From Prochlorococcus sp. AG-402-I20 (GTDB taxonomy: Bacteria > Cyanobacteriota > Cyanobacteriia > PCC-6307 > Cyanobiaceae): DNA of 53,255 bases. Within the stretch, counting starts at the first letter, position 1, and every line of letters begins with the position of its first letter. The notes below the pieces were generated by a model that was not told the DNA's origin, ran no database searches, and saw only the letters and a program-made list of their open reading frames with translations. The position numbers and the translations under genes are program-made. Shown here piece after piece: positions 2,770-21,334 of the stretch. The stretch lies in assembly GCA_003216975.1 (NCBI GenBank), contig QCHY01000010.1, forward strand, positions 1-53,255, read 5' to 3'.

Positions 2770-2830
2770 GTTGATCAATTACGGGCGATTTTTCAGTAAA
2801 TATTTTTGTTAGACCCGTACAGCAAAAATT
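2770..2830 (-). repeat. Remnant of the ychF-array repeat (right flank only)
   Basis: GTTAGACCCGTACAGCAAAA at 2808-2827 matches GTTAGACCAGTACAACAAAA of the repeats at 7187-7206 and 10158-10177 in 18 of 20 positions. It is preceded by a GTTGAT...TTACGGGCG stretch equivalent to the GTTGATTACGAGC segment of other copies. The ychF-like centre itself is not recognisable. It suggests the array once extended this far left. Confidence 0.6.
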
Positions 2831-2976
2831 AAGCAAAATGAAACTAACCAGATAGTAATGAAATTGCTTACCAAGTTTATTTCTGATCTAATAAACTAAA
2901 TAGTAATATATAAACTTAAAGAACACATAATTAATTAATCTCAAAAAATTTTATAGCTATTATTATTGATTATTTA

Positions 2977-3933
2977 CTATAATTTTTTTATAATCATCAT
3001 TATTGAATCAGTGGTAAAATTCTTACATTTTTCATTTAGCCAAAAAGACTCTATCCAGGAAGGATTATCTCTAGCAATGTAATCATCACTCGTGACTTTT
3101 CGTTTATCATTATATCTTAACCACTCTATATAATTATAAAAGCCATATCTTTGTACTGGTAAAAAATCAATATCATAGTTACCGAGTTCAAGACTCTCTA
3201 ATAAATATCTAAGGGTGGATTTATTAAATGATGAAACATGCGCAGGGAATCTGATAATTTTAGAATAATTAGAAGAAAGCTTTAATAGATCATCATCTTC
3301 ATTTGGAACTTCTATAATAATAGATCCTCCTTTTTTTGTAATTGTAAAAATATTTTTAATGAAATCGCGTATGTTGTAAACATGCTCAAGGACATGAAAG
3401 CAGTAAGATATATCAAAATAATTAATGTATTCACTAGCGAATTTATTATCTAAAAGTCTATGATGAAAAGTAAAATCATCAATATTTGGTTGAAAACCTT
3501 CTATTCCCAAATTTATTCTTTCACTACTTGTTTCGAGAAGATGTATGTTTAGTTTTGGATTGGATTTTTTTAAATTAAATGATAACTGCCCGTATCCAGA
3601 ACCAATATCTATAAAACTGGAATTAGGTTTATTTAATAAAGATTGAATCAAAGGAATTAATCTTTCACAATCTCCTTTTATGAGATGAAGTACATTTTGA
3701 AGGGGTTTAGGTAATTTATCATCCGTAAAGAGATTTAAATCTTGAGATGAAGTTTTTCTAAAAGTGTCCTGAATAATAGATTCTTTATTAGCATTATCAT
3801 CTAGCTCATTCAATTGTTTTGCAGGAAGTTGAACAAGGCTACATTTCAAACATTTTAAAAGAGTATGATTGCTATCAATAGTATAAAATTTAGATAAATC
3901 TGTTGAGTTGCATATTCTACAGTGAATATTCAT
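2977..3933 (-). CDS. Class I SAM-dependent methyltransferase with N-terminal zinc-ribbon-like segment
   Basis: The N-terminus has paired cysteines typical of sugar C-methyltransferase-like proteins (CRICNST at residues 5-11 and CLKCSLVQL near 28-36), probably binding zinc. A SAM-binding motif I follows near residues 107-116 (FIDIGSGYGQ), then the FDISYCFHVLEHV post-motif near residue 174 that is usual in this fold. The likely role is methyl transfer to a sugar or polyketide-like small molecule; the substrate cannot be read from the sequence. The ATG at 3933 begins directly with the cysteine segment, so the start is credible. It stands alone on the minus strand between the remnant at 2.8 kb and the repeat at 4.0 kb. 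Confidence 0.8.
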   Translation of the reverse strand: MNIHCRICNSTDLSKFYTIDSNHTLLKCLKCSLVQLPAKQLNELDDNANKESIIQDTFRKTSSQDLNLFTDDKLPKPLQNVLHLIKGDCERLIPLIQSLLNKPNSSFIDIGSGYGQLSFNLKKSNPKLNIHLLETSSERINLGIEGFQPNIDDFTFHHRLLDNKFASEYINYFDISYCFHVLEHVYNIRDFIKNIFTITKKGGSIIIEVPNEDDDLLKLSSNYSKIIRFPAHVSSFNKSTLRYLLESLELGNYDIDFLPVQRYGFYNYIEWLRYNDKRKVTSDDYIARDNPSWIESFWLNEKCKNFTTDSIMMIIKKL

Positions 3934-3990
3934 TAGATTTGGTCAGATCAAAATTTTATATAGTTTAGAAAGGGAGATTCCATTAACAAC

Positions 3991-4101
3991 AAGTTTGCAA
4001 TAACTGGAAACTTACACATTGAATAAAAATTCATATCAGACACCTAATACCAACAGGTCTCAAGAGGATTTCCACTTTACTACAACGCAAAAAAGTTAGA
4101 C
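3991..4101 (-). repeat. ychF-derived array repeat, site H (most diverged full copy)
   Basis: Within the 400-bp gap 3934-4333 the core at 3998-4051 matches the copy at 10079-10133 (AATAACTGGAA, CTTANAC, TTGAATAAAAA, TCATAT, then TAATACCAAC). On the minus strand the centre reads Y-E-F-L-F-N-V-stop with third-position changes (GAA, AAT, GTG). A GTTAGAC motif follows at 4095. No gene is evident in the rest of the gap. Confidence 0.75.
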
Positions 4102-4333
4102 AAGGCTTGATTTAGTCATCAATATAAAACCAATTAATTGCTTGGAGGAATAAAAGAATATATTTATAACACTTTCAAGTAAGTGGAAATACGAATAATA
4201 AGGGTTACGTTCTTTCAATCATGAATGAGTGCGCACTTTTCAATAAATGTTAATATCAACATTAAATAGAAATCATGAAATACAAAATATAAGAAATTTT
4301 ACCTTATTCATATGATCATAGAAATTAATAATC

Positions 4334-5809
4334 TTATACTCTATAGAAATTCATTCCGATAATAATCCTATCTTTTTTGCCCTTATAGAATACAGAGTGA
4401 TTTCTCCATGCAGGAAAAATAATAATTAAACCATTATTTGGAAGAATCTCCTGTTTTGGATCTTCTAATTTCAAAATTCCTGGCTCTTCACAATCTTGAT
4501 CACCAATTGATAAATAATATACAAGCGAAAACTTGTTTTCTGAAAGATTCAAACCTTTCAAATTATCTACATCACTTAAATGATTATGACTTACTAATCC
4601 AGCGCCTGATTTAGATATAGTAAAAAATGAATCTAAAACGATTATTTCAGAATGAACAGACTCTGAAGCAATAGAAATTAGATCATTTTTTATCATATTT
4701 ATTATAGGATCATTTCTTTTAAATAATGAATAGTCAGAACCCCTTGCATTTCCATAAGTTGGTTCAATGTAGAATGATTGATCTATAGATCTTATTTCAT
4801 ACAAGCTATCTATAAGTTCTTGTTCTACAAATCTATTTATAATTAATGGGTTTTCTTTTAAAATCTCATTTTCAAACTTAGTTGTATTGTTTTTTATTTG
4901 AAAATTATTATACTCGATAATTTTATTTTTCTCGAAAAAACTTTTTAAAACCTTATTAAGTTCCTCATCAGGTTCAATATTTTCTGCTATACAAATATAT
5001 TCTAATGCCAATATTCTCTCACCCTTAATATAAAAGCAAATACTTAAATTACGATAAGCGATAGCATAATCAGATTTAATTTTAATTGCTTTATTTAGGA
5101 ATTTTTCTGCATCCATATATTTACCACTAATCATCAAAACATTTCCCAAATTAAGATAAGCTTCTTCAAGGGCAGGGTTAAGTTCAATTGCCTTAATTAG
5201 AGATAGTTCTGCTTCTTCATATTTCCCAAGATCTTTATATATTTTTCCTAAATTACTATAATTTTCTCCCAACTCAGGATTTATTTTAATTGCATTAAGT
5301 TGTGAAGCCTCTGCGTCTTTTAATTTACCAAGATATTTTAATAAAAGTGCTAAATTAGAGTGAGCCCTAGTAAAATCAGGTTTAATTTCAATAGCTTTTC
5401 GAAATAATAATTCCGCTTCTTGTACATTCCCAAGATCTCTTAATATATTTCCTAGATTAAAATAAGCATCTGCAAAATCAGGTTTAATTTCAATAGCTTT
5501 CCGAAATAATAATTCCGCTTCTTGTACATTCCCAAGATCCTTTAAAACTACACCATAGTTAGAGAAAACTCTGTAATCTTTATAACCTTGATCAATAAAA
5601 ACCTGATAATATTTGGCTGCTTCATAGATATTTCCTTCTTTATGAAACTTAAATGCTTGTTGGACAATATGCTCTTTAGAATTTTTCTTGAAAGCGTTAG
5701 TAAAAAAAGAACTACCTTCTATAATTTGCTCTGAGTCAAATGGAACTGTAAATATTGTCACCTTGTTGATAATATTATTTTTTTGCTCATTACTAGTAAG
5801 ACCTTCCAT
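4334..5809 (-). CDS. TPR-repeat protein with C-terminal 2OG-Fe(II) oxygenase-like domain
   Basis: Residues ~45-290 are TPR units. Two neighbouring units share DLGNVQEAELLFRKAIEI and are nearly identical at DNA level about 102 bases apart (around 5384-5450 and 5486-5550), so a unit was duplicated recently. Residues ~340-491 resemble a 2-oxoglutarate/Fe(II) dioxygenase: an HNHLSDVD metal region, a distal WRNHSVFY histidine and a downstream arginine in KKDRIIIG that would bind 2OG. The expected chemistry is hydroxylation of an unknown protein or peptide. The ATG at 5809 has GAGG immediately upstream. It parallels the TPR-sulfotransferase: a TPR scaffold with a swapped enzymatic tail. Confidence 0.8.
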   Translation of the reverse strand: MEGLTSNEQKNNIINKVTIFTVPFDSEQIIEGSSFFTNAFKKNSKEHIVQQAFKFHKEGNIYEAAKYYQVFIDQGYKDYRVFSNYGVVLKDLGNVQEAELLFRKAIEIKPDFADAYFNLGNILRDLGNVQEAELLFRKAIEIKPDFTRAHSNLALLLKYLGKLKDAEASQLNAIKINPELGENYSNLGKIYKDLGKYEEAELSLIKAIELNPALEEAYLNLGNVLMISGKYMDAEKFLNKAIKIKSDYAIAYRNLSICFYIKGERILALEYICIAENIEPDEELNKVLKSFFEKNKIIEYNNFQIKNNTTKFENEILKENPLIINRFVEQELIDSLYEIRSIDQSFYIEPTYGNARGSDYSLFKRNDPIINMIKNDLISIASESVHSEIIVLDSFFTISKSGAGLVSHNHLSDVDNLKGLNLSENKFSLVYYLSIGDQDCEEPGILKLEDPKQEILPNNGLIIIFPAWRNHSVFYKGKKDRIIIGMNFYRV

Positions 5810-6787: not shown

Positions 6788-7084
6788 TTGCGAGTGCCCA
6801 TACTTTTTAAAAGTATCGACTCGTACAAAAAAATTGATTTCTTCACGCCTCAATTATTTTATAAACTCTATCCTAAACTTCTTGACAAATTATTAATAAT
6901 AGTAATTTTGGGTATTAATTCATTTGTAAGTTTTTGTACAGAAGAATCTCCAATCTTTTGTGCATATGCAATCCAATTTCTTATTATTAAAAAATTAATT
7001 AAATTGAATAAAACTCTATACAGGAAAGTAATAATAAATGATTACACCGATATTTGGGTATTAGAACAAAGCAAGGACAGATAA
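6788..7084 (+). CDS. Possible 98-residue hypothetical protein
   Basis: The frame starts at TTG 6788 or GTG 6794 and encodes a mostly hydrophobic, lysine- and isoleucine-rich product (LLDKLLIIVILGINSFVSF) with a basic tail. No ribosome-binding site or family is apparent, and such composition arises easily in AT-rich non-coding DNA. It ends just before array site G. It may be a decayed gene. Confidence 0.25.
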   Translation: MRVPILFKSIDSYKKIDFFTPQLFYKLYPKLLDKLLIIVILGINSFVSFCTEESPIFCAYAIQFLIIKKLIKLNKTLYRKVIINDYTDIWVLEQSKDR

Positions 7085-7100
7085 AGTTTTTACCTTTAAG

Positions 7101-7237
7101 AACCTCTGCAGTGACTGAACGCTTATACGTTAAATAAAAACTCCTTCACGTCAAGTCATAGCAGTTGATTACGAGAGAATTTACCGGTTAGACCAGTACA
7201 ACAAAATGTTAGACCATTCTTGAGACAGGTTGAGACT
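7101..7237 (-). repeat. ychF-derived array repeat, site G
   Basis: The core at 7108-7162 reads on the minus strand D-V-K-E-F-L-F-N-V-stop. Arms GTGACTGAACG and CGTCAAGTCATAGC are imperfect inverted repeats around it. The right flank has GTTGATTACGAG, then GTTAGACCAGTACAACAAAA (7187-7206), a second GTTAGAC and two GAGAC motifs, the same type as site E. Confidence 0.85.
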
Positions 7238-7285
7238 AATCACTCAAATATATTTCTTGGATAAGATAGAGTTTTGACTTTGGGA

Positions 7286-9025
7286 ATGGAAACTTTAGAC
7301 GCCGTATATAAAAGCTATCAAATTGAAACTAGTTTAGAAATAGAGCCTTTTAATAGATACATAGAAGCTTACGGAGTCAAAGTAGCTGGCTTGAAAGCAA
7401 CAGGAGGAAACGTTGCTGTAGAAGATGAATTTATAAGAAAGATAGCCCAAACAACAAAATTATTACTCAACCCAGAAGACACATCGATTGATTCAGACTC
7501 TCAAATAAAAGCTATTAAGCATTTAAAAACTATAAATACCCTACAAAGAATAGGAGTTGAGGAAATGGATTCGTACACTCCTTCGCTAAGCGGAGATAAT
7601 TATTCAGGATGGGACTTAACAAATGATAAGCATAGTCTTACCGATTTCATATGGCAATTCAACCTGTCTGGTAATTCAAGCAAAACAGCTAACAGTCAAA
7701 TAACAGAAGTACTTGAACATTTACTCCATACACTAGTTCGATTTGCCTTGCCAGGTGCATTCCCAGCGCAATTTCTATTTATTGAAGATAGAAGTCCTGA
7801 ATACGGTGGGGATGTCTCAAAAGAGGAGCCAGTATTGTCTGGTTCGCTTTATGAAGCAGCAAAAGAAGCTATTAACAATGGGGTTTTTGATGCTTCAAGC
7901 TACCACCATATGGGAGTGGATAGTTTCACATACTGGAAAACAGTAATGGTTGAATATCAATACGCTTTGACCTTTGCGGAATGGGGATATATTGAGAAAT
8001 ATTCAGGCAGTCTTGATCCAGAATGGTCAGATGATTACTTAACTCCCGACAAAATTAAGGAAGGAAATCCTTTAGGACATAGCTTGTATGAAAACTATAT
8101 TAAAAAAGTAATTAGTAAGCCTTCCAGCAATGAACTGGAAAAAATTTTCAAAGAGAATAACCAAGGGCTTTCCGGATATATCGCAAATACTGGGAGCAGT
8201 TCAAACGATGAGCTTACTGGTAGTAGTAGCAATGAAACTTTCTTCGCTTCAGAAGGCTCCGATAAAATTAATGGTGAAGGAGGTAACGACACTTCTGTTT
8301 ATTATGGAAAGTTTTCTGATTATTCCTTTACAAGAGAAACCAATTCATTAACCATTGTCGATCAAAGAACAGGTACAAATGATGGAACAGATACTCTCTC
8401 AAATATTGAATACATTCAGTTCTCAGATCAAAAAGTAGAAGAATCAAAAGTAGACGTTCTTAAAACATATAGCGGTGAATTTAGTGATTATAAATTTTAC
8501 AATAAAGGTAATGGTATCTATCAGATCGAAACAGATTCTGGCTATGACGATATCACTGGTCTTCCTCTCTTAACCTTTACCGGAGAGGCAACAACAAGTT
8601 CTTTTCGAGACATCAGTGCCATTGTTGATATCAAAGGAACATTTGATCAAATCACTGGTTTAAATACAAAAGATGCAAAAATGTTCCGCTTATATAACGC
8701 TTCTTTCAAACGCCTTCCAGATGCGGATGGTTTGAAATATTGGATAGGTAAATATAGTTCTGGAGAAAATGATGAGCGAGCAGTAGCATCTTCTTTCCTT
8801 GTCTCAGATGAATTTAAACAGCGTTATGGAGCAAATGTCTCTGACACAACTTACGTCAATAATCTTTATCAAAATGTACTAGGAAGATTACCTGATAGCA
8901 GTGGATTGAACTATTGGTTAGGTCAACTCAATAGTGGTGCTGAAACACGTTATGAAGTTCTCTTGGGGTTCTCAGAATCAGATGAAAACAAACTACTCTT
9001 TACTGAGATGACTGGGTTTGGATGA
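7286..9025 (+). CDS. Secreted RTX-like protein with C-terminal DUF4214 repeats
   Basis: The C-terminus has two DUF4214 units: FRLYNASFKRLPDADGLKYW near residue 470 and YVNNLYQNVLGRLPDSSG near residue 525, ending in the LLGFSESDEN signature. Before them lies a degenerate haemolysin-type glycine/aspartate stretch (GSDKINGEGGNDT) and DGTDTLSNIEYIQFSD, a segment that usually accompanies RTX repeats. No N-terminal signal peptide is seen, as expected for type I secretion substrates. The N-terminal ~290 residues are not recognised; EHLLHTLVRFALPG is its most distinctive segment. The first possible start is a TTG at 7274, but I prefer the ATG at 7286. It fills one array cassette alone, on the plus strand. 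A surface or extracellular role is likely; enzymatic activity is unknown. Confidence 0.75.
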   Translation: METLDAVYKSYQIETSLEIEPFNRYIEAYGVKVAGLKATGGNVAVEDEFIRKIAQTTKLLLNPEDTSIDSDSQIKAIKHLKTINTLQRIGVEEMDSYTPSLSGDNYSGWDLTNDKHSLTDFIWQFNLSGNSSKTANSQITEVLEHLLHTLVRFALPGAFPAQFLFIEDRSPEYGGDVSKEEPVLSGSLYEAAKEAINNGVFDASSYHHMGVDSFTYWKTVMVEYQYALTFAEWGYIEKYSGSLDPEWSDDYLTPDKIKEGNPLGHSLYENYIKKVISKPSSNELEKIFKENNQGLSGYIANTGSSSNDELTGSSSNETFFASEGSDKINGEGGNDTSVYYGKFSDYSFTRETNSLTIVDQRTGTNDGTDTLSNIEYIQFSDQKVEESKVDVLKTYSGEFSDYKFYNKGNGIYQIETDSGYDDITGLPLLTFTGEATTSSFRDISAIVDIKGTFDQITGLNTKDAKMFRLYNASFKRLPDADGLKYWIGKYSSGENDERAVASSFLVSDEFKQRYGANVSDTTYVNNLYQNVLGRLPDSSGLNYWLGQLNSGAETRYEVLLGFSESDENKLLFTEMTGFG

Positions 9026-9130: not shown

Positions 9131-9300
9131 AAGTTAGAGTAAATTGTTAGACTATGCCTTAGACTAACTCCTGAGAACCCTTGGTATGACTAACCTTTTA
9201 GACGTTAAACGAAAACTCCTTAGCATCCAGTCATACCAGTTGATTACAGCGAAAAAACAGGGTTAGACGTAAGTTAGAAGAGCAGAACGAAGTTGTAACG
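9131..9300 (-). repeat. ychF-derived array repeat, site F
   Basis: The core at 9183-9238 reads D-A-K-E-F-S-F-N-V-stop on the minus strand, the only copy with a replacement (Leu to Ser) in the tail. The left flank carries AAGTTAGAG and GTTAGAC motifs. The right flank has GGTTAGACGTAAGTTAGAAG and AGAACGAAGTTGTAACG, the same type as site C. It occupies most of the 320-bp gap 9026-9345. Confidence 0.85.
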
Positions 9301-9345: not shown

Positions 9346-9912
9346 TCATACAAGTTTTTTCGCATCCACCGCATTTAGAAAAGCTTCATTTAATGGTTCT
9401 AAAGAGCTATTTGTCCATTCACTCAGAGCACTTCTCATTCCACAAGATCCATTCCTATAGGCATTTGTCATTTCTAAGCCTGTTAACTCATGATGACCGG
9501 AGAGGATTTGAAAGACTAATTCGGGATAACTATCGTAATTCTTAAGACAAATAGATAACTCTCCTAAGGCATCTTTCATAGAAAGTTTTTTTTCTTTCCG
9601 ATGTAATTCAAATAATTCTCTAGCAACTTCACCATATGTTTTTGCTCCACTATCAGAAAAAATACTATTACATTGATCTACCTCTTTTTCTTTATCAAAA
9701 GAGAAGTTATCGGTTAGATTTAAACGTTCTTCTAGTTTTAGTAGTCTCTTTTCAAGAATATCAAAGTCGTCTGTCACTTTAGTAGAGCCTTGTTCTAGTA
9801 GCTCAGTCACAAAAGCTGTTAATGTCTTCCCGCTCTTAATTGCCTTGGACTTCAATTTAAGCAAGAGTTCGGGATCAATCTTAATGTTCAATTGAGACTT
9901 ATCTTTACTCAT
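9346..9912 (-). CDS. Ribbon-helix-helix (CopG/Arc-like) N-terminal domain protein
   Basis: Residues 1-42 match a ribbon-helix-helix DNA-binding fold: QLNIKIDPELLLKLKSKAIK followed by SGKTLTAFVTELLEQ, a beta strand and two helices. A heptad-like segment follows (ILEKRLLKLEERLNL, residues ~54-68) that could be a coiled coil. The remaining ~110 residues, with cysteines in CNSIFSDSG and GELSICLKNYD, are not recognised. It is probably a dimeric DNA-binding regulator. It is alone in the smallest cassette (sites F-E, ~0.9 kb) and no toxin partner is adjacent. It could regulate cassette genes or the array itself, but that is inference. Confidence 0.65.
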   Translation of the reverse strand: MSKDKSQLNIKIDPELLLKLKSKAIKSGKTLTAFVTELLEQGSTKVTDDFDILEKRLLKLEERLNLTDNFSFDKEKEVDQCNSIFSDSGAKTYGEVARELFELHRKEKKLSMKDALGELSICLKNYDSYPELVFQILSGHHELTGLEMTNAYRNGSCGMRSALSEWTNSSLEPLNEAFLNAVDAKKLV

Positions 9913-10020: not shown

Positions 10021-10209
10021 GTGCTTAGAAGTTAGAACAAAGTTAGAACAGGCTATAATTCAATTATCGAGAACTCCTGCTATAACTGGAAGCTTAAACG
10101 TTGAATAAAAACTCATATACATCAAGTCATACCAGTCGATCACAGCGATAAAAACGTGTTAGACCAGTACAACAAAATGTTAGACAATTTTCGAGACATC
10201 TTGAGACCC
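10021..10209 (-). repeat. ychF-derived array repeat, site E
   Basis: It fills much of the 347-bp gap 9913-10259. The left flank has two GTTAGAAC motifs (10031 and 10042). The core at 10079-10133 reads D-V-Y-E-F-L-F-N-V-stop (GTT TAA, as in intact ychF). The right flank has GTTAGACCAGTACAACAAAA (10158-10177), GTTAGAC and GAGAC motifs. Confidence 0.88.
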
Positions 10210-10259: not shown

Positions 10260-10973
10260 TTACGCGAACCCTCGCCCTCTGGATTTAGTGACATCACCTA
10301 CCGTTAAGAAGTGAGTCTGATCACTGCCAACGTCATAAAGAGTGTAATTAGCCCCTGCTCCAATTCCTATCACTGCACGTTTAGGAAGAGTATGTTCCTG
10401 GTTTCGTTTTCCATTTAAATCTTTTATTTTTGAGTCAACTACAGCATCAGTCAACTCAAGATGAAATTGCTGTTTACTTCTAGCTGTGAATAATCTATTC
10501 ACATTAAGGCGGGTAATTCGATCAAGAAGAGTAAGTGGAGGCGTTTGCTTTGTCAGAATGTCTCCTACATCTTTTGAACTTCCATGAATCAAGCCACAAT
10601 CAAGTTCTACAAATCCAAATTGTAGTGATGATATCCATCCCAAATAATATGGATCTACAGCATTCATAAGAGCATTGACAGCATCGTCTCCTTTATTGAG
10701 TCGTAAAGCATCTGCCTTTCTCTCCCCACGGTAACCTGTTTCTGCCAATAATTGTTCCTCCCACCAGCCATAGATACAGTGAGGTTTCAAATCACCACGA
10801 TGAGGGTTTAGTAATCTATTTAAAAGTGCATCACAATTCTTATTTGGTCCTACGACGTCTCCTAAAACAAAAAGAGTTATGTCTCCGCGAGTATTTTTTA
10901 AATCTTTTTGAATCAATTCATAGGTCTCAAGATCACCCATAAGACCACTTAAAAGTGCCCAACGTTCAATCAT
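10260..10973 (-). CDS. Degenerate metallophosphoesterase-like protein
   Basis: The layout follows the upstream phosphoesterase but metal ligands are lost: SGLMGDLETY replaces the SDxHGN motif, LGDVVGPNKN keeps the GD block, YGWWEEQ replaces GNHD, LIHGSSKD keeps one histidine, and the GHTH motif is replaced by LFTARSKQQFH. It is therefore probably not a working phosphoesterase; a binding or regulatory role is likelier. The ATG at 10973 overlaps the preceding stop as ATGA; a GTG three codons upstream is less likely. It is the last gene of a three-gene operon whose promoter carries a Fur/Zur-like box. Assignment rests on the shared block order, not a search. Confidence 0.65.
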   Translation of the reverse strand: MIERWALLSGLMGDLETYELIQKDLKNTRGDITLFVLGDVVGPNKNCDALLNRLLNPHRGDLKPHCIYGWWEEQLLAETGYRGERKADALRLNKGDDAVNALMNAVDPYYLGWISSLQFGFVELDCGLIHGSSKDVGDILTKQTPPLTLLDRITRLNVNRLFTARSKQQFHLELTDAVVDSKIKDLNGKRNQEHTLPKRAVIGIGAGANYTLYDVGSDQTHFLTVGDVTKSRGRGFA

Positions 10974-11785: not shown

Positions 11786-11789
11786 ATCG

Positions 11790-12578: not shown

Positions 12579-12618
12579 ACAGCACACAAATCAATGTATA
12601 AGAATATACACTGAATAT

Positions 12619-12706: not shown

Positions 12707-12875
12707 TTAGACTAAATGTTTAGACCAAACCTTAGACTAACCTCTGAAAGCCACTGGTATAACTAGACGCTTATACGTTGAATAAAAACTCCATAACGTC
12801 CAGTCATACCAATTGATTACGAGCAAAAATCCGTGTTAGACCAAATCGCCAATTTGTTAGAACAAGTTAGAACAG
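12707..12875 (-). repeat. ychF-derived array repeat, site D
   Basis: The core at 12756-12810 reads D-V-M-E-F-L-F-N-V-stop, identical to the end of YchF. Arms GGTATAACTAGACG and CGTCCAGTCATACC are inverted with two mismatches. The left flank has AAAGTTAGAC and repeated TTAGAC motifs. The right flank has GTGTTAGACCAAATCGCC, TTGTTAGAAC and AAGTTAGAACAG, the same type as site B. Confidence 0.9.
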
Positions 12876-13313: not shown

Positions 13314-13952
13314 ATGAATAAGAAAAGAACGGGAGGAGGATCGTTCTGGTACATCGTCGGTGGAGTATCTGTACCCTTGATTCTGGCATCAGCTTCTTAT
13401 TTCCCTTGTAATAGTTTCTTGGCGGGTGAGGCCATAAAAATTTACTATATATCTTGCTTTTTGCTTCACTTTGTTGTTCGAGCAGTCCGAAGACTTTGGG
13501 GATTTATTAAAGCAAAAATATCATTGAGGACCATATTGAAGACTATTTGGACGGAAGTGTGGATATGTGTAATTGCCATTATCTATTGGACTTTCTGCAT
13601 TGGATTGGTTTACTTCAATCCTGTTTGTGCATCAGACCCATTTGATACGGTTAGTAAAGGAAGTGGTCCACGTAATTCCGTCATTCGAAGAGTTAAAGAA
13701 TGCGAGTTATTGAGATCCAAAGGTAATACAAGCCCTAGCTTTCGTGGTTGGGAAGGTGAGTCATACAAACTTCTCCCAGAAGACGGCGATTGCAATGGAG
13801 ATATTAATAACCACATAACAGCCGAATCAAAGGACACCGAAGACTTACCCACTTACTCTTTTAATGTCAAAACTCGAAAGAGGAGTTGTTTCCATGATGG
13901 TCCATATGAAAATTTTGCTGGTTGCAGTGCTAGAAGGGATGGTGAATGGTGA
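13314..13952 (+). CDS. Membrane protein with C-terminal extracytoplasmic domain (pilin-like?), unknown
   Basis: Three hydrophobic segments are visible: FWYIVGGVSVPLILASASYF (~11-30), IYYISCFLLHFVVRAV (~44-59) and VWICVIAIIYWTFCIGLVYF (~82-101). About 110 polar residues follow. This tail contains SVIRRVKECELLRSKGN and ends RSCFHDGP...GCSARRDGEW. The next gene's product has a matching order (LISLIRRCW, NPSF, then TTCKKPD...GCDTSKNPVGKAW), so the two are probably distant paralogues. The helix-then-globular, C-terminal cysteine pair pattern recalls cyanobacterial minor pilins, but no prepilin cleavage motif is seen. The function is unknown. It shares a cassette (sites D-C) with its paralogue. Confidence 0.6.
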   Translation: MNKKRTGGGSFWYIVGGVSVPLILASASYFPCNSFLAGEAIKIYYISCFLLHFVVRAVRRLWGFIKAKISLRTILKTIWTEVWICVIAIIYWTFCIGLVYFNPVCASDPFDTVSKGSGPRNSVIRRVKECELLRSKGNTSPSFRGWEGESYKLLPEDGDCNGDINNHITAESKDTEDLPTYSFNVKTRKRSCFHDGPYENFAGCSARRDGEW

Positions 13953-14037
13953 TAGACGTTAAAAGCCTCTTAATACTCGATCTCAATCTGAACTTATCTG
14001 TGATTTCCTTGAGCAAGCATTTAAAAAATCAGACAAA

Positions 14038-14057
14038 GTTAGACAACCAGACGAGAC
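14038..14057 (+). repeat. 20-bp repeat, left copy, bounding the second membrane gene
   Basis: GTTAGACAACCAGACGAGAC occurs here and again, without mismatch, at 15121-15140. The pair brackets a ~1.1-kb unit holding only the gene at 14313. The 360-bp gap 13953-14312 around this copy has no other feature that I can support. Confidence 0.8.
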
Positions 14058-14312
14058 CAAAAAAGCTCATACATAAAACTAGACAATCTAGATAAAGCTA
14101 GAGAAATTCAATCAGAATATTCATTGGATACATAATGATTACAACGCTATGGAACGGATGCAGATTTCAAAACTATTCTTGGGCTTATCAATAACGCTTA
14201 ATGCAGCCATCTGTCCACAAAAAATAAATCAAAAGCAAAGTATTTCATAACTAATTAATGGCTCCTATTCTTACTTATTTCATATAAGTTAGTATTCTTA
14301 AAAATATCAATT

Positions 14313-15095
14313 ATGTCAAATTCACTAAAGAGAAAATTCAAATATTTAATATATATATTGCTAGGGATTTTTTCTCCTTTTATATTTTTTGCAGGATTGA
14401 TGCTTTTCCCCATTGTACGCAATATAATAACTGGTATCACTGGAGTAACTATTGGTTTAATTATTTCATTAGTTTTACTATTAGTATTTTTATTCTCATT
14501 TTTTGCCAGTCAAAAGTCTTTGAGAAAATGGTCTTCTATTTCATACTCTAAGAAACAACAAATATTTATCTATGGATCTGCTTCAGTTTGGTGGTTAATT
14601 ACACTTGCATTTTCTGTTGTAACAGCAGGTACATTTATAGGGACAGAACATGCAAAAAAACAACTAATTAGTTTAATTAGACGATGTTGGATAAGTGGAA
14701 GATTGGAGTTTAACAAAAATCCAAGTTTTGGAACAATGCTCAAAGGTCAAAAAACAACTGATGAATTTGGGCCATATATATTTATTGATCCTTCTACTGG
14801 AGATCGAATTTCAACTAACAAGGCTTCCAAATCCTCATGTTTTGATATTTCAGCAATTAGTAGCAGCCCCTTTAATCCTTCTCTTAGGGTCACTCTTCCT
14901 AAAAAAGATAATGGTTTAATTATCCCTCCTCAAAATTTTACTGAATCTCTACTTATCAAATCTCCTGAATTCAATCCAAAAGCATGGTCTATTCAAAAAC
15001 CTAATGCTGAAAATCTAAAAACTACATGCAAAAAACCTGACTCATTTTCTTTTGGTTGCGACACCTCTAAGAATCCTGTTGGCAAAGCTTGGTAA
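14313..15095 (+). CDS. Membrane protein with C-terminal extracytoplasmic domain, likely paralogue of the preceding gene
   Basis: The N-terminal ~110 residues are strongly hydrophobic: YLIYILLGIFSPFIFFAGLM, then VTIGLIISLVLLLVFLFSFF, then WWLITLAFSVVTAGTFIG, giving three or four membrane helices. About 145 polar residues follow, beginning EHAKKQLISLIRRCWISG, a helix-like segment similar to the VIRRVKEC segment of the gene at 13314. The tail has CKKPDSFSFGCDTSKNPVGK and ends in tryptophan, like its neighbour. The last hydrophobic helix running into KKQLISL recalls the pilin helix, but I regard that only as a structural hint. It is enclosed by two copies of a 20-bp repeat, so it may have inserted or duplicated as a unit. 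Confidence 0.6.
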   Translation: MSNSLKRKFKYLIYILLGIFSPFIFFAGLMLFPIVRNIITGITGVTIGLIISLVLLLVFLFSFFASQKSLRKWSSISYSKKQQIFIYGSASVWWLITLAFSVVTAGTFIGTEHAKKQLISLIRRCWISGRLEFNKNPSFGTMLKGQKTTDEFGPYIFIDPSTGDRISTNKASKSSCFDISAISSSPFNPSLRVTLPKKDNGLIIPPQNFTESLLIKSPEFNPKAWSIQKPNAENLKTTCKKPDSFSFGCDTSKNPVGKAW

Positions 15096-15162: not shown

Positions 15163-15333
15163 AGTTAGACAAAAAGGTTAGACAAGCATTCTGTCTAACC
15201 TTTTGAAAACCCTTGCTATGACTAGTCTGCTATACGTTGAATAAAAACTCCATCATGTCCAGTTATACCAATTGATTAGAAGCTAAAATCGCGGTTAGAC
15301 GTAAGTTAGAAGAGTAGAACGAAGTTAGAACAG
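15163..15333 (-). repeat. ychF-derived array repeat, site C
   Basis: It lies in the 324-bp gap 15096-15419. The left flank has GTTAGACAAAAAGGTTAGAC. The core at 15214-15269 reads M-M-E-F-L-F-N-V-stop with TAG instead of TAA. The right flank GGTTAGACGTAAGTTAGAAG, then AGAACGAAGTTAGAACAG, matches site F. Confidence 0.88.
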
Positions 15334-15419: not shown

Positions 15420-16268
15420 TCAGATAATTTCAATATTCCACTGTAATTCACTTTTCAAGTCAGGAGCACCAGTAAAACTTCCTCTTACTGGAGCTACAAG
15501 TTCAGACTTAGAAGAAGAGGCTAGGGTTATATATTTACTATTAATCAAACCACAACCGCTTGGATCAAATCCTCTCCATCCAAAACCAGGTATAAAAATC
15601 TCAGTCCATGCATGAAGTTCATATTTTTCTGGGGGTTGGTCCATAAATTGATACCCGCTAACGAAACGACTAGGTATGCCAACGCATCGACAAGTCTCCA
15701 TTAACAAAATCGCCAAATCCCTGCAAGAACCAACTCTTTCTCTAAGAGTTCTTCCTGCAGTCCATGCCGGTCCAATATGTCTAGGTGTATATTTAACTCT
15801 ATCTTTTATTAGAGCGATTAATTGATATAAAAAGTCCAATACATTATTTTCGATCCCTACCAATGCCTCTTGAGCAATTTGAATAGCTGCCGGATCATGT
15901 TGTCCATTAAGGAACCAACCTTGAATAAATCCATTCAATGAGCTATTTTCTCCTTCTATTTTCATAGGTAAACTTAGATCATTATAATTTTTTAATTGAT
16001 ATAAATCTGGATGAATCTGTGTCTCAATTTCACTTTCTGTCTTAATAAGAAGAGAATCAGTAGGTTCTTTAAAAAATACTTTAAAAATATCATCTCCATT
16101 AGCAGAGATCAAAGGAAATATTGAATGGGGATAGGGATTAATTTCAAGATCAAAATAATTTAACTTCTGGAAGCCGCCAGACCTGGGTTTCATACAAATC
16201 AAATGCTCGCTAAGAGAGACGGGCTCTTCATAAGAATAAAATAGTTTGTGAATTATTTTCTTTTTCAT
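15420..16268 (-). CDS. Transglutaminase-like cysteine protease/amidase family protein
   Basis: The C-terminal half carries the transglutaminase-like triad: cysteine in RVGSCRDLAILLMETCR near residue 165, histidine in ELHAWTEIFIPGFGW near 217, and aspartate in GFDPSGCG near 233. The N-terminal ~100 residues match the beta-rich region usual in bacterial members (DUF-type N-domain). The length, 282 residues, is normal. The start overlaps the stop of the upstream alpha-E gene by 4 bases (ATGA). In other bacteria this family repeatedly accompanies circularly permuted ATP-grasp and alpha-E proteins, as here, in a predicted peptide synthesis or modification pathway whose product is unknown. Confidence 0.85.
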   Translation of the reverse strand: MKKKIIHKLFYSYEEPVSLSEHLICMKPRSGGFQKLNYFDLEINPYPHSIFPLISANGDDIFKVFFKEPTDSLLIKTESEIETQIHPDLYQLKNYNDLSLPMKIEGENSSLNGFIQGWFLNGQHDPAAIQIAQEALVGIENNVLDFLYQLIALIKDRVKYTPRHIGPAWTAGRTLRERVGSCRDLAILLMETCRCVGIPSRFVSGYQFMDQPPEKYELHAWTEIFIPGFGWRGFDPSGCGLINSKYITLASSSKSELVAPVRGSFTGAPDLKSELQWNIEII

Positions 16269-17239
16269 TCTTGTAAAGAATCAAAATCAAATCCCTTTTC
16301 ATTTATAAAATAAAAGCTATGTATAAGATCATTTAATTTATTTAAATCAATTTGAAGACTATCAATAGCCTCATGCAAACCATTTTTAATTAAGTGATCT
16401 ATTCTTACAAAACTCCATTTTGATAGTAATAAACCTATTAAACATTCCAGATCATTTGGCTTCTCAGAAACAGGTGAATTTTGAATCTTACCTAAAGATT
16501 CTTTAATACCCTCAAGACAAAATCTCACAGATCTTGGGAAAATAGGATCTAATAGTAAAAAACTTGCGATTGCATTAGGAGTTATTGATCCTTGTTCAGA
16601 TCTTCTAAACATTTGATAAGCTCCCGCTGAGCGTAATAAAGAAATCCATTGCAGCTCGTCTAACGCTCCACCAAGCTCATTTAGATTTGGTAAAAGCAAA
16701 AAATATTTTACATCTAATATTCTAGAAGTCTTATCCGCTCTCTCAATCAACCTTCCTAATTTACTAAAATGCCATGCAATATCATGACTAAAAGTAGCAT
16801 CTGTAACTCCATAAAATAACTGGCAACTTCTTCTTATTTCGAATAATTGTTCTTGAGCAGGTTGATGCCAAATGACCTCACCCTCCTGAATACTCCAAAA
16901 CAAACTATTTATTTGTTCCCACATCTCAGAAGTAATAACATCTCTTATTTGGCGAGCATTTTCTCTTGCCATATAAATACAACTAACAATGCTATTTGGA
17001 TTCTCTCTATCTTTAATAAGAAAACTTATTACATCGCTTGAAGTTTTATTCTTATAACTCTTATCGAATTCGTTTCTATCACCACTAGCATCTATTAAAG
17101 GCAACCATGGTTCAGCACTACCAGGAGGACAATCTAGAGCCATAGACTCACTAACTTCAACAAATCTAGAAATATTCTCTGCACGTTCTAAATATCTATT
17201 AATCCAATAAAGTGATTCAGCAACTCTACTAAGTAACAT
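16265..17239 (-). CDS. Alpha-E domain protein (DUF403)
   Basis: It begins MLLSRVAESLYWINRYLERA, the characteristic opening of the alpha-E family, and the 324-residue product is predicted largely helical, with ENARQIRDVITSEMWEQIN near residue 95 and an RLIERADKTSRILDVKY segment near residue 165 that is also typical. No catalytic residues are known for the family. It sits 5 bases downstream of the ATP-grasp gene and overlaps the transglutaminase gene by ATGA, so the three are surely one transcript. It is thought to work with the ATP-grasp enzyme on an unknown peptide-like substrate. Confidence 0.88.
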   Translation of the reverse strand: MLLSRVAESLYWINRYLERAENISRFVEVSESMALDCPPGSAEPWLPLIDASGDRNEFDKSYKNKTSSDVISFLIKDRENPNSIVSCIYMARENARQIRDVITSEMWEQINSLFWSIQEGEVIWHQPAQEQLFEIRRSCQLFYGVTDATFSHDIAWHFSKLGRLIERADKTSRILDVKYFLLLPNLNELGGALDELQWISLLRSAGAYQMFRRSEQGSITPNAIASFLLLDPIFPRSVRFCLEGIKESLGKIQNSPVSEKPNDLECLIGLLLSKWSFVRIDHLIKNGLHEAIDSLQIDLNKLNDLIHSFYFINEKGFDFDSLQE

Positions 17240-17244
17240 TTATA

Positions 17245-18678
17245 TTATTGGCTTACCACCCAAGTGTCTTTACACCCTCCACCTTGAGAAGAATTAACAA
17301 TCAAAGAATCTCGTTTTAAAGCAACCCTTGTGAGACCTCCAGGACTTACCCAAGTATTCTTTCCCCTAAGAACATATGGTCTTAAATCAACATGACATGG
17401 GTATACTTCACCATCACTAAGTGATGGGACCGTAGACAAATCTAGAGTTGGTTGAGCTATATAATTTCTTGGATTAGCTTTGATTTTTGCTGAAAATTTA
17501 TCAATATCTATTTGAGAAGAATGTGGACCTATTAACATTCCATAGCCGCCAGCTTCAGAAACACTTTTAACAACTAAGTAATTGAGGTTCTCAAGTACAT
17601 AATTAAGATCTTTTTCCTTTGCACATACATATGTTTTAACATTATTTATTATAGGTTCCTCTTTTAAATAATATCTAATCATATCTGGTACAAAAGTATA
17701 AATTAATTTATCATCTGCTAATCCTGTGCCAGGAGCATTTGCAACAGCCACTCTACCCTTACTCATCACATCAAGAAGACCTGGGACTCCAAGCATTGAA
17801 TCTTTTCTAAAGAATTTAGGATCTAAAAAATCATCATCTATTCGACGATAAATAACATCAATTTTTTTTATCCCTGAGGTGGTTCTCAAATAAACATTAT
17901 CATTCTGACAAACTAAATCACTTCCTTCAACTAATTGAACTCCCATCTGTTGAGCTAAATAACTATGTTCAAAATATGCGCTATTAAAAACTCCAGGAGT
18001 CAATAAAACAACTTTTGGATTGTCAGTCCAAACTGCCAATTCCTGAAGTGATTTCAATAAATATGATGGGTAATCATCAATAGGTCTAACAATCCTGCCA
18101 GCAAAAAGGCTAGGAAAAATTCTTTTCATAACTAATCTATTCTCCAAGAAATATGCAACTCCTGAAGGGCACCGAAGATTGTCCTCAAGAACGAGCCAGT
18201 CTCCTTTTCCATCCCTAATTAAATCCAAGCCAGACACATGGCACCATTTACCTAATGGCAACAGAAATCCCTGCATTTGTGGCCGCCAACCATCAGAACT
18301 CTCTATAAATTCTCTTGGGATAATCCGATCTTTTATTATTTGCTGTTTCCCATAAACATCAGATAAAAATAAATCTATTGCTTCAAGTCTCTGTACAAGT
18401 CCTTTTTCTAGCTCTAACCACTCAGAGGCACCAATTACTCTCGGCAAAGGATCAAAAGGAAGAATCCTTTCAGAACCTTTATTACCGGAGTCGTTAAGAC
18501 GAAAAGTTGCTCCATGACGTAGAAGTAATTTTCTTGCAATTTCATGACTTACATTTAACTGGTCTAAACCTATCTTTTTTAAAGACGAAAGAAGAGGCTC
18601 AAGGGATGTTCTAGGAGAAAAATCTTCAGATGTAAAATATTCATCATATCCCTTTTTGGGTTGATAATCTGTAAACAT
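17245..18678 (-). CDS. Circularly permuted type 2 ATP-grasp protein
   Basis: At ~477 residues this matches the DUF404/DUF407 ATP-grasp-like proteins: LLRHGATFRLND near residue 50, LPFDPLPRVIGASEWLELEK near 75, GLDLIRDGKGDWLVLEDNLR near 150 and PSGVAYFLENRL following. These enzymes are predicted ATP-dependent amide ligases. I start at ATG 18678 because a clean GGAGG (complement of 18684-18688) lies 5 bases upstream. The four extra codons opening with TTG would use that same Shine-Dalgarno sequence as coding. It is the first gene of the ATP-grasp/alpha-E/transglutaminase operon, which fills the cassette between sites C and B. Confidence 0.88.
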   Translation of the reverse strand: MFTDYQPKKGYDEYFTSEDFSPRTSLEPLLSSLKKIGLDQLNVSHEIARKLLLRHGATFRLNDSGNKGSERILPFDPLPRVIGASEWLELEKGLVQRLEAIDLFLSDVYGKQQIIKDRIIPREFIESSDGWRPQMQGFLLPLGKWCHVSGLDLIRDGKGDWLVLEDNLRCPSGVAYFLENRLVMKRIFPSLFAGRIVRPIDDYPSYLLKSLQELAVWTDNPKVVLLTPGVFNSAYFEHSYLAQQMGVQLVEGSDLVCQNDNVYLRTTSGIKKIDVIYRRIDDDFLDPKFFRKDSMLGVPGLLDVMSKGRVAVANAPGTGLADDKLIYTFVPDMIRYYLKEEPIINNVKTYVCAKEKDLNYVLENLNYLVVKSVSEAGGYGMLIGPHSSQIDIDKFSAKIKANPRNYIAQPTLDLSTVPSLSDGEVYPCHVDLRPYVLRGKNTWVSPGGLTRVALKRDSLIVNSSQGGGCKDTWVVSQ

Positions 18679-18903
18679 ATCAACCTCCAATTAGTTAATT
18701 AAATATGAATCAAGCCAGCAATTATTCAGGTAGCTAAAAATACAAAAAAGAATTTAAATATCTCCAGTTTATGATTTAAGTATATTAAAATACAGTTCTT
18801 GCATGATCTTCTATTATTTCCTCATAAATCTCAAGCATCGAACGAACTTAAGGTTATGCATGTTTAGAGGGAAAATAACTAAAAAAGATTTCTAAAATAA
18901 TTC

Positions 18904-19061
18904 AGAAGTTAGAATAGCTATAAAAATCGCTGAAAACCCCTGCTATGACTGGACGCTTATACGTTGAATAAAAACTCCATACAGACTAGTCACACCAGTT
19001 GATTACGAGCAAAAATCTGTGTTAGACCAAATCGCTAATTTGTTAGAACAAGTTAGAACAG
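18904..19061 (-). repeat. ychF-derived array repeat, site B
   Basis: It lies in the 446-bp gap 18679-19124, where nothing else is recognised beyond the operon promoter region. The core at 18941-18997 reads C-M-E-F-L-F-N-V-stop. Left arm TGCTATGACTGGACG is the consensus form; the right arm is more diverged. The right flank GTGTTAGACCAAATCGC, TTGTTAGAAC, AAGTTAGAACAG matches site D. Confidence 0.9.
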
Positions 19062-19124
19062 CTCATACTTAGGCAATGAGACAAAGATAAGACAGACTGA
19101 TCGCGACCAATAGAAGGTTTTTTT

Positions 19125-19442: not shown

Positions 19443-19480
19443 ACTCTCTAAAAAGACAACATCAAAATCTTGCTCTCTAA

Positions 19481-21034
19481 CTAAGCAATCAAAGCAACCG
19501 TATCTGCGAAGCCATGGCTCGTTAAATAATCAGTCATCTGATCTAAATTCTGATAATTCGCATATTGGATATTGCCATCTGCATGCATCAACATGTGGCA
19601 ATAAGCAGTATTATCCACTTTGCTCCAATACAACTCTTGAAAGCCATCACCGTCATAATCTCCAGCTCCTTTAAGGATTAAGTTATTTAGTTCCAAATCT
19701 TTTTGCAATGTATAACTACTATCTAATGGGCTACCTTTTTCTACTGTTCCTGTAGTGACATTGGGATCTTCATAGACGCCTACAACACGTGTGGTATCTC
19801 CACTTTCATATTTTGAATAGTCACAAATACCTGTCAAAGTATCAATAGAAGCTGTTACCCATCTACCACTATTTTGATTCGTATAGATTGATTCGTAGAG
19901 ACCATCACCATTAACGTCTATTACTCCTTGATATTGATATGCATCAGGTGTATCAAAATCCTTATTGCCGCCATGATAATTACCATCACTATCTTTGACA
20001 TGTGTCAGAGTATAGGTTTCACCAATGGTGTGTTCACATTCAATGGGAGCACTATCGTTCACGCTTACTGAACCATCGGTGTCAACTTGATAAGAACTAT
20101 TCGTAGACGCAATCTTATAGGTTGTTGCAGACGATTCAAAGAGATGACCATTCACAAGCTCCCAACCTGTCGGCATCGCTAGCGGTGTTCCTCTGATCCT
20201 TCCTGAACGAACACCATTCAGGTCAGAACCACTCAGGTCAGCATTAGTCAGATCAGCTCGTCTCAGGTCAGCATAAAACAGGTCTGCACCAGTCAGGTCT
20301 GCACCAGACAGGTCTGCTCGTATCAGTTTGGCATCCATCAGGTCAGCGTCAGTAAGGACAGCATCAATCAGGTCAGCATCAATCAGTTCTGCATCAAACA
20401 GATCTGCATCAGTCAGATCTGCACCAGTCAGGTCAGCATCCATCAGGTCAGCGCCTCTCAGGTCAGCGCCTCTCAGGTCAGCATCAGTCAGGTTAGCTCC
20501 AGGACCAATTAAATATTTATTAATTAAGCTCCAGCTTGTAGGCAATGCTAATGGTATGCCAACAATGTTTCCTGAACTAACACCACTCAGGTCAACACCA
20601 CTCAGGTCAATACCACTCAGGTCAATACCACTCAGGTCTAAACCACTCAGGTTAGCTCCAGGACCAACAAAATAGCCATTAATTAAGCTCCAGTTTGTAG
20701 GCAATGCTGATGGTATGCCAACAATGTTTCCTGAACTAACACCACTCAGGCGAGCTCCACTCAGATCAGCATCCCTCAGGCGAGCTCCACTCAGATCAGC
20801 ACCCCTCAGGTCTGCACCAGTCAGATCAGCACTCCTCAGGTCTGCACCAGTCAGAGATGAACCACTCAGGTCAGCGCCTCTCAGGTCAGCTCTCCCAACG
20901 TCTGCACCAGTCAGATCTGCACCACTCAGGTCAACACCACTCAGGTCAACTATCCAAAAGTCTGCACTAGCCAGGTAAGCGCCAGGACCAATTAAATATC
21001 CTCTTACGTAGAAGCCAGATCGAAGACTACTCAT
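19481..21034 (-). CDS. Pentapeptide-repeat protein with C-terminal repeat-poor domain
   Basis: Residues ~20-285 are runs of A(D/N)LxG-type pentapeptides (ADLTGADVGRADLRGADLSG), which fold as a right-handed quadrilateral beta-helix. The runs are broken three times by a linker of similar sequence (NIVGIPLALPTSWSLINKYL). Two linker copies are nearly identical at DNA level, starting at 20523 and 20682, 159 bases (53 codons) apart, evidence of segmental duplication. Residues ~310-517 have aspartate-rich stretches (DVNGDGLYES, GAGDYDGDGFQELYW) like calcium-binding FG-GAP or dockerin loops. No signal peptide is obvious. The function is unknown; the long polymer-like helix suggests a structural or binding role. 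Sense codons for the repeat give a 15-base DNA periodicity. Confidence 0.85.
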   Translation of the reverse strand: MSSLRSGFYVRGYLIGPGAYLASADFWIVDLSGVDLSGADLTGADVGRADLRGADLSGSSLTGADLRSADLTGADLRGADLSGARLRDADLSGARLSGVSSGNIVGIPSALPTNWSLINGYFVGPGANLSGLDLSGIDLSGIDLSGVDLSGVSSGNIVGIPLALPTSWSLINKYLIGPGANLTDADLRGADLRGADLMDADLTGADLTDADLFDAELIDADLIDAVLTDADLMDAKLIRADLSGADLTGADLFYADLRRADLTNADLSGSDLNGVRSGRIRGTPLAMPTGWELVNGHLFESSATTYKIASTNSSYQVDTDGSVSVNDSAPIECEHTIGETYTLTHVKDSDGNYHGGNKDFDTPDAYQYQGVIDVNGDGLYESIYTNQNSGRWVTASIDTLTGICDYSKYESGDTTRVVGVYEDPNVTTGTVEKGSPLDSSYTLQKDLELNNLILKGAGDYDGDGFQELYWSKVDNTAYCHMLMHADGNIQYANYQNLDQMTDYLTSHGFADTVALIA

Positions 21035-21185
21035 TTCAATATCACAACTAGCTCAAATAGTGTTGCTATAAATTATTTCTCACCAGTCATCTTCTTTGTA
21101 TCTTTCAATACAAAACACCTCAATCGTTACCCATTCAATACCAAAAATTAATTAGGGCTACATCTATAAAAACGACCTACACGAG

Positions 21186-21205
21186 CTTGTCTTGTCTTGT
21201 CTTGT
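21186..21205. repeat. Short tandem repeat (CTTGT)x4
   Basis: Four perfect CTTGT units lie in the 263-bp gap between the pentapeptide gene and ychF. It could be slippage-prone, but it is in no reading frame. Confidence 0.7.
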
Positions 21206-21227
21206 CGATAAAGTAAAATTCGCCAAT

Positions 21228-21248
21228 AAAAAAGCTTGCTTTAAAGCT
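21228..21248 (-). terminator. Candidate intrinsic terminator of ychF
   Basis: On the minus strand AGCTT...AAGCT forms a 5-bp stem around TAAAGC and runs into TTTTTT. The stem is short, so support is modest. It lies ~50 bases after the ychF stop. Confidence 0.4.
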
Positions 21249-21279
21249 AGAGAAGGGTATACAATAATCCTTAGAAACG

Positions 21280-21334
21280 CCTGCTATGACAGGGTTCTTA
21301 AACGTTGAATAAAAACTCCATAACATCACCCTCG
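21280..21334 (-). repeat. Native ychF 3' end, putative attachment site (site A) of the cassette array
   Basis: The segment from TGCTATGAC (21282) through the ychF stop (21298-21300) to the codons for [10 protein letters not shown] is the sequence repeated at sites B-H. To its right the ychF body continues, unlike all other copies. To its left it keeps the CCTGCTATGAC motif of the repeats. AGGGT (21291-21295) and ACCCT (21328-21332) form short inverted arms in positions matching the longer arms of the other sites. Confidence 0.75.

Follow-up and report, generated by a model that had tools for sequence, protein, structure and literature searches.

Tandem cassettes at the 3' end of ychF

The window analysed here is a 53,255-bp stretch of Prochlorococcus sp. 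AG-402-I20 (contig 10 of a 1.70-Mb genome in 43 contigs, 92% complete), and it carries an island between 2.7 and 21.3 kb that ends at the gene ychF. This island is very probably a tandem array of small non-autonomous cassettes captured successively at the 3' end of ychF. It is split into eight units by seven sites in the same orientation, together with a decayed distal site and a half-site at ychF. The strain belongs to genus g1, in which its nearest named relative among the genomes retrieved is Prochlorococcus sp. AG-402-K04 (G003); locus L020 is from the same genome as G003 and was excluded from counts.

A direct-repeat search combined with alignment placed the core starts at 4016, 7127, 9202, 10098, 12775, 15234 and 18961, and at 21302 at ychF, giving spacings of 3111, 2075, 896, 2677, 2459, 3727 and 2341 bp. 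The site copies are imperfect repeats of about 150 bp, approximately 60–90% alike. All lie on the plus strand: site H (3993–4110, alignment score 13/17), G (7073–7223), F (9140–9295), E (10037–10194), D (12714–12871), C (15171–15329) and B (18904–19057). Site A (21242–21328, plus strand) consists of the left arm and core of the element and runs into the intact ychF (21298–22389, minus strand); the core consists of the final codons of this gene and its stop. The initial annotation had described seven copies in one orientation, units of about 3.1, 2.1, 0.9, 2.7, 2.5, 3.7 and 2.3 kb, a repeat centred on the last ychF codons and stop, and a single copy, site A, that continues into the ychF body. 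All of this was recovered, with the core being the complement of the last ychF codons; its site numbers lie near the left edge of the flanking dyad and are not core starts.

The remnant it had placed at 2770 is visible by eye as a decayed distal junction but was missed by both the site profile and the site model. Here a terminator-like hairpin found by hairpin scan (AGCTGCACA-N8-TGTGCAGCT plus T6; 2715–2745, plus strand) is followed by core remains, TTAAAC-AAAAAAC, and an arm-like GTTAGACCCGTACAGCAAAA (2749–2850, plus strand). The site profile gave an additional weak arm-like match at 7004–7079.

Structure of the sites

Across 56 full sites from 23 loci, the common order is left-arm GTTAGAC/GTTAGAA repeats, CTGAGAACCCTTGGTATGACT, the core ACGTTGAATAAAAACTC, GTCCAGTCATACCA and GATTACAAGCAAAAATC, and the right arm begins GGTTAGAC. 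The units are joined at this 17-bp core derived from the ychF 3' end. A dyad, GGTATGACTnGAC ... GTCnAGTCATACC, surrounds the core carrying the last ychF codons, its halves are centred on GTT-GAATAAA-AAC (GTT-N7-AAC), and GTTAGAC/GTTAGAA motifs occur in both arms. By eye, the right arms fall into about four types. The left part at ychF differs among genomes (TTAAACG, CTATACG, CTAGACG and others), which indicates that the edge of the ychF stop comes from the element.

The attachment site of a tyrosine integrase with arms consists of a core with inverted half-sites, a short spacer and repeated arm motifs on both sides. The array sites share this layout, with a core dyad, a short spacer and arm motifs on either side, and judged from their sequence they look like attP. 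The two dyad halves show no clear covariation (491 against 477.9 expected, standard deviation 8.1, P=0.06), as expected for protein-binding half-sites.

An ordinary integron (IntI, attI and attC) would also produce a polar, ordered cassette array, and words of the attC kind, GTTRRRY, do occur, as GTTAGAC in the arms and GTTGAAT in the core. We nevertheless consider an integron extremely unlikely. The covariation result lends no support to a folded, attC-like site or hairpin. The cargo genes in the window lie on both strands, and the sole match to the recombinase family PF00589 in this genome, a protein termed TR387, matches no integron-specific NCBIfam model at E≤0.001; the assembly may lack about 8% of the genome, and IntI models were not run on whole genomes.

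Distribution of the sites and alleles of the locus

The sites are concentrated at ychF. When a single repeat was used as query against its own genome, all seven matches at E≤0.01 fell on the window contig (7119–21327), with site H at E=0.017; relaxed to E≤10, the same query gave 18 rows, 11 on the window contig and seven elsewhere with E≥1.3. A model built from 40 sites gave nine matches at E≤0.01, all nine on the window contig (3992–21327). Within the genus, 27 of 37 genomes, own included, match the repeat (G014 at the ychF end only), and the ten without a match also lack an assembled ychF. The element arm adjoins ychF at 24 of the 25 ychF loci of the genus, G014 being the exception. A double-arm pattern, scanned over 60 genomes, had 80 matches in the 37 genus genomes, of which 72 fell on array loci and eight elsewhere; the reversed pattern, as a control, had 31 in the same 37 (0–2 per strand and genome).

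The tie to ychF drawn in the initial annotation thus holds, although some stray sites exist: one strong copy far from ychF in G020, one on a contig without ychF in G012, and weaker site-model matches away from ychF, for example G032:410297 and G182:1662688 among the matches listed. The G020 copy is a full site (L220:7353–7483; G020:C1:1100353–1100483) outside the ychF array and beside pilin-like genes; in the same genome, the unit adjoining ychF encodes a protein with a pilin-methylation motif and a weak lectin match. The G012 copy (L144:6500–6800; G012:C9) has a core and right arm but no left arm, and its island includes a gene that we take from its sequence to be aroQ.

The window begins at base 1 of its contig, and the distal border falls inside it, at a small gene, X (45 aa; 2523–2660, plus strand), which occurs together with ychF in empty and occupied relatives. 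A core/variable map of the distal flank gave no clear picture, and the distance between X and ychF was used in its place. The two genes lie on one stretch in 15 genus genomes, with gaps ranging from 86 bp in G014, the empty allele, to 18,586 bp in the window. The short gaps are 86 (G014), 157 (G017), 2720 (G026), 2783 (G025), 4963 (G028) and 6877 bp (G032); the longer ones are 10588 (G034), 10784 (G033), 12141 (G020), 12460 (G022) and 13683 (G004), followed by 14088 (G002), 14539 (G013), 16057 (G011) and 18586 bp (window). G014 has no arm at ychF, G017 keeps the arm with a gap too short for a unit, and G025 and G026 hold about one unit. A hairpin like that of the window sits 89 bp from ychF in the empty G014. 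The terminator pattern has seven matches in these loci, six of them beside a core or the ychF end; the hairpin of the window itself has a longer loop and was picked up by the hairpin scan.

Shared units and array polarity

Neighbouring detected sites delimit 85 stretches, seven of which are under 200 bp and represent doubled or weak site calls. At the chosen thresholds the 85 stretches form ten multi-member families; single linkage merged some distant members of F2 and F3, and both are therefore treated as loose families. Family F4 occurs in six genomes, at position 1 from ychF in G011 and G031, position 2 in G000, G001 and G022, and position 5 in G020. Family F1 occurs in 12, at position 1 in nine, at position 4 in G000 and G031, and once on a contig that lacks ychF. 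The DNA adjoining F4 changes across the core at either end of the unit. Presence or absence of single units exactly between sites, which the initial annotation had proposed to look for, was found: F4 adjoins ychF in G011 and G031, and one different unit intervenes in G000, G001 and G022.

At four-fold degenerate sites the F4 genes are 0.949–0.951 identical, against 0.686 for ychF (15 of 15 pairs for each of three genes), and the F1 genes 0.932–0.946, against 0.649 (55 of 55 pairs for each of three genes). Whole-unit identity is likewise 0.959 for F1 and 0.976 for F4, against 0.889 for ychF. These comparisons indicate that F1 and F4 spread recently by horizontal transfer.

The sites also differ along the array. 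Their score drops with rank from ychF (Spearman −0.52 for bits and −0.47 for the core; n=77 internal sites, with ychF sites and contigs without ychF excluded), and the mean is 115 bits for rank 1 but 35 for rank 8; within the eight genomes having six or more sites, rho ranges from −0.21 to −0.89. The P value of this trend is inexact, as sites within a genome depend on one another, doubled or weak calls also receive ranks, and good sites served to train the profile. The most diverged F4 copy is that of G020, at position 5. This decay away from ychF looks as if new units enter at ychF, and the order of units apparently records their arrival, the newest beside ychF.

A comparable unit is seen outside the genus. 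In Prochlorococcus sp. AG-402-K22 (L037), of another genus, a 7.46-kb unit at ychF has the 15-bp direct repeat ACATTAAATAAGAAC at both ends; the left arm adjoins ychF, and the opposite end has a right arm with GTTAGAC; its main open reading frames (ORFs) encode 189, 197 and 1818 aa, and the 1818-aa product has cadherin domains. In its relatives L021, L028 and L029 the flanks are joined, with no unit and no arm. Over 299 genomes of the order, at least 153 match the site model at E≤0.01, many only at the ychF end itself. The subset of loci that were read includes arm-bearing or multi-site loci, such as G170 with three sites, which retain the dyad but have different arms, and G182, in which two sites precede ychF. 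Some of the family's other genera thus have related end motifs at ychF; the initial annotation had suggested searching other picocyanobacteria.

Proposed mechanism

Given these observations, the cassettes are best read as inserted site-specifically by an enzyme acting in trans. Each cassette would travel in circular form, and the junction of the circle would be a full attachment site composed of left-arm GTTAGAC/GTTAGAA repeats, the dyad around the core, and a right arm with more GTTAGAC repeats. Recombination within the core against the ychF copy would put the cassette beside the gene; insertion would give ychF a new stop-codon edge and shift the previous cassette outward. The lambda-like layout and the 7-bp spacer point to a tyrosine recombinase, which could come from a transient helper element or be the near-universal TR387. 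We infer the circle, the action in trans, the growth at the ychF end and the rearrangement of arms by homologous recombination or conversion. Unit positions, empty and one-unit alleles and site-to-site joints support the successive integration at the ychF 3' end that the initial annotation had proposed, with the older end pushed outward. Its integrating elements appear to have been added at ychF, as it held, but are refined here to non-autonomous cassettes with mosaic arms.

Several observations weigh against this account. X accompanies ychF at only 15 of the 25 ychF loci, with no X match in the fetched stretch of the other ten, and it was not found in nine loci of other genera. An additional site lies beyond X in G002, G022, G028, G032 and G033 (strong only in G032), and X may therefore be an old cassette and not the native flank. 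Family F3 has only a weak four-fold-site excess (0.741 vs 0.689; 19 of 28 pairs), whole-unit identity in F2 and F3 (0.813 and 0.797) is below that of ychF, with 0 of 19 and 1 of 32 pairs above it, and the single F5 pair is less alike than ychF. When unit ends were compared in fixed windows, F1 showed only a blurred step. The ychF loci of L022 and L023 carry about 5 kb of other DNA without an arm, which indicates that this place accepts other insertions too. With no linked recombinase, the term site-specific recombinase rests on site anatomy and joints. Finally, five F4 copies (that of G020 excluded as decayed) are 99.1% identical in the body but 83.3% over the 42 bp right of the core (window 15251–15292 and homologues) and 80.2% over a 60-bp left-arm stretch, partly via an indel; exchange in the core alone does not predict such arm divergence.

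The arms thus bring up a different explanation, in which RecA shuffles the repeats after uptake of foreign DNA and no site-specific enzyme takes part. Mosaic arms, a stretch right of the core that is independent of the cargo, and imperfect repeats of the length and likeness found here would all suit it. Homologous recombination alone is nonetheless improbable: L037 gained its unit with about 15 bp of shared sequence while L021, L028 and L029 are armless, the genus has an empty allele and single-unit alleles, and neighbours change across the core at both F4 ends. Since the 42-bp segment is uncoupled from the cargo, the arms have likely undergone conversion or exchange, and homologous recombination or gene conversion probably remodels them.

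Search for the recombinase

To locate a possible enzyme, the own genome, a set of 37 genomes (24 from the genus, own included) and 12 chosen genomes were searched for PF00589. No match lay inside any ychF array examined, in line with the absence of an integrase from the window in the initial annotation. With no integrase in the units or found elsewhere in the arrays, we regard the units as non-autonomous. In the six complete genus genomes the PF00589 matches are more than 35 kb from ychF, the nearest being in G025 (766708, with ychF at 726208–727296). A home-made recombinase profile found fragments only in L144 and L220, near the stray sites. Recombinases elsewhere in the genome, which the initial annotation had suggested looking for, are present: TR387, unlinked to the array, and a family of serine resolvases that occurs outside arrays in 22 of 37 genomes, own included (G024–G036 were not in that search), and was not retained as a candidate.

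The stray sites bear on whether each unit is a decayed autonomous element, such as a prophage or tycheposon, that lost its integrase after insertion. A degraded tyrosine recombinase gene lies 1.3 kb from the G020 site (fragments at L220 8818–10054) and a broken one about 3.4 kb from the G012 site, as such decay would leave. However, the well-kept F1 and F4 units are nearly identical between genomes and shared without a recombinase, and the home-made profile found none in the ychF loci that were read for the family's other genera. We therefore give this explanation little credence.

A transient helper (a phage, plasmid or other island) may instead supply the integrase, the cassettes being its satellites. 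Satellites that use helper enzymes are a known kind, no recombinase gene was found in the arrays, and the units are small; we put this at close to an even prospect. Two results speak weakly against it: a single site sequence matched none of 50,697 phage records (plasmid records were outside the search), and two exact core or arm patterns matched no IMG/VR contig. The phage records also held no TR387, and the only match of the F4 unit there was 202 bp at 71% in two Acinetobacter phage records. A viral origin gained no support: IMG/VR was scanned with two exact patterns and for one protein, with no match. A 529-aa recombinase of G007 was rejected as the common enzyme: nine of 37 genomes match it, but close full-length copies were confined to G007, G011 had a relative at 31–33%, and the others had fragments. 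Three GTTAGAA/TTCTAAC words occur within 41 bp before its start (L168:7265–7308), and at none of 17 other recombinase loci.

TR387 itself (L019:1438–2601) is near-universal in the family and has an extra N-terminal domain; its neighbour is presumably cobO. It occurs in 291 of the 299 genomes of the order, unlinked to arrays, and because it is nearly universal its presence cannot test its role. It is the single PF00589 match in the own genome, in the complete G032 and in G156, G027, G285, G022, G016, G013, G009 and G017, and likewise in the complete G142 of another genus. Among 17 sequences it is invariant at R241, K268, R333, H356 and Y365, and it has Y330 where many relatives have His. The only NCBIfam match of the own-genome copy at E≤0.001 is the archaeal XerA model, far below its cut-off. 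A single-sequence fold prediction was poor; with 17 sequences the mean predicted local distance difference test score (pLDDT) was 74.8 and the predicted template modelling score (pTM) 0.50. The best PDB matches of the model were XerA, IntI4 and the Tn1549 integrase, with template modelling scores (TM-scores) to the query of 0.29–0.36, so low that only its catalytic class is supported. Its N-terminal beta-beta-beta-alpha part, as we take it, resembles an arm-binding domain.

A further reading is a chromosomal capture system of marine picocyanobacteria, integron-like but assembled from different components: the ychF 3' end would be the capture site, attP-like sites with GTTAGAC-type arms would tag the cassettes, and TR387 would be the resident enzyme acting in trans. 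We consider this rather unlikely. The sole PF00589 match of G003 (73% complete) is a recombinase other than TR387, and in G343 (86% complete), which has sites at ychF, no match to TR387 reaches E≤1e-40; both carry arrays and are incomplete, which lowers the chance of such a system slightly.

Recombinases near ychF were also seen elsewhere. Four alphaproteobacterial ychF loci have a tyrosine recombinase relative 2–8 kb downstream of ychF (L056:18452–19555, L067:14016–15095, L069:14466–15545 and L090:13211–14044), and ychF may thus serve as a target for integration in other bacteria too. A relative of TR387 is located 5 kb upstream of ychF in L041 (Anabaena azotica).

Cargo of the window

From the distal end, the cargo comprises a methyltransferase-domain protein (318 aa; 2977–3933, minus strand) and, past site H, a TPR protein with a weak 2-oxoglutarate (2OG)-oxygenase-like end below the Pfam cut-off (491 aa; 4334–5809, minus strand). 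The F5 unit encodes a DUF4214 protein with an RTX-repeat match (583 aa; 7274–9025, plus strand), and the F3 unit a 188-aa protein (9346–9912, minus strand) with a weak DUF6364 match; a relative clustering with the latter has a weak RHH_10 match, and both matches are below the Pfam cut-off. The F1 unit (10260–12587, minus strand) encodes a 240-aa protein, a calcineurin-like phosphoesterase (296 aa) and a CobW_C-like protein (265 aa, below the Pfam cut-off). Two ORFs of 212 and 260 aa without a Pfam match follow (13314–15095, plus strand), and the F4 unit (15420–18690, minus strand) encodes a transglutaminase-like protein (282 aa), an Alpha-E protein (324 aa) and a circularly permuted ATP-grasp protein (481 aa). 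The unit adjoining ychF holds a pentapeptide-repeat protein (517 aa; 19481–21034, minus strand).

TPR proteins form the largest cargo cluster, with 16 members. Two TPR proteins flank the distal border (97–2055 and 4334–5809) with unlike C-terminal domains, a sulfotransferase and the weak 2OG-oxygenase, respectively. Defence cargo found little support: in PADLOC, two of ten window cargo proteins (those of F4 left out) had weak matches, to a methyltransferase and TPR-type models.

Comparison with known systems

The genomes of Prochlorococcus are very small, and few plasmids or prophages are known from it, so how it gains genes is an open question. At the fixed ychF locus, empty, one-cassette and eight-cassette alleles within one genus make gene gain readable like a log, and the search for the enzyme becomes a defined experiment. 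A literature search on Prochlorococcus and ychF returned no title on such an array; most subscription papers were outside that search, so its absence in print is not shown.

Integrons and clusters of attC sites lacking integron-integrases (CALIN) insert at one end in a polar manner and form cassette arrays, possibly with no linked integrase. The ychF array is likewise polar, with no linked integrase found. Unlike them, it has several genes per cassette on both strands, a conserved gene end as its target, no IntI match in the own genome (on which an IntI model was not run as a whole) and no clear covariation of the dyad.

The tycheposons of Prochlorococcus, attributed to Hackl et al. 2023, reportedly move cargo at conserved genes with a tyrosine recombinase. 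They are described as elements of 4–200 kb at seven tRNA genes in Prochlorococcus (PMC10872708). The organisms and the kind of locus are thus shared, namely mobile cargo at conserved genes. The array differs in its target: the sole tRNA found in the window lies at 48380, and the core is the ychF 3' end, so a tRNA gene is not the target here. It differs also in having window units of 0.9–3.7 kb between well-kept sites and no recombinase found in the arrays.

Closest in behaviour are additive flexible genomic islands (fGIs), in which cassettes come and go at a single locus whose target is a conserved gene (PMC4119200). Those at tRNA genes, such as Alteromonas fGI1, 'Ca. Actinomarinales' fGI1 and Methylophilaceae fGI-2, show the same gain and loss of cassettes at one locus (PMC4119200, PMC10872708). 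Their target, as given there, is a tRNA gene and their repeat a short tRNA fragment, whereas the target here is the protein gene ychF, and the sites of the ychF array have a conserved dyad and arm motifs, with a quality that declines away from the target. As in additive islands, strain-variable cassettes occupy the same locus and are separated by repeats of a conserved gene end.

Salmonella genomic island 1 (SGI1) encodes its own integrase. SGI1 is reported to integrate at the 3' end of a conserved gene, trmE, and tandem copies are possible (PMC2297512, PMC8409611). The ychF array shares integration at such a gene end but, unlike SGI1, consists of different cassettes that have only their ends in common. 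The island is thus best read as an additive island of cassettes whose target is a protein gene; its sites are of the integrase style, and no linked integrase was found.

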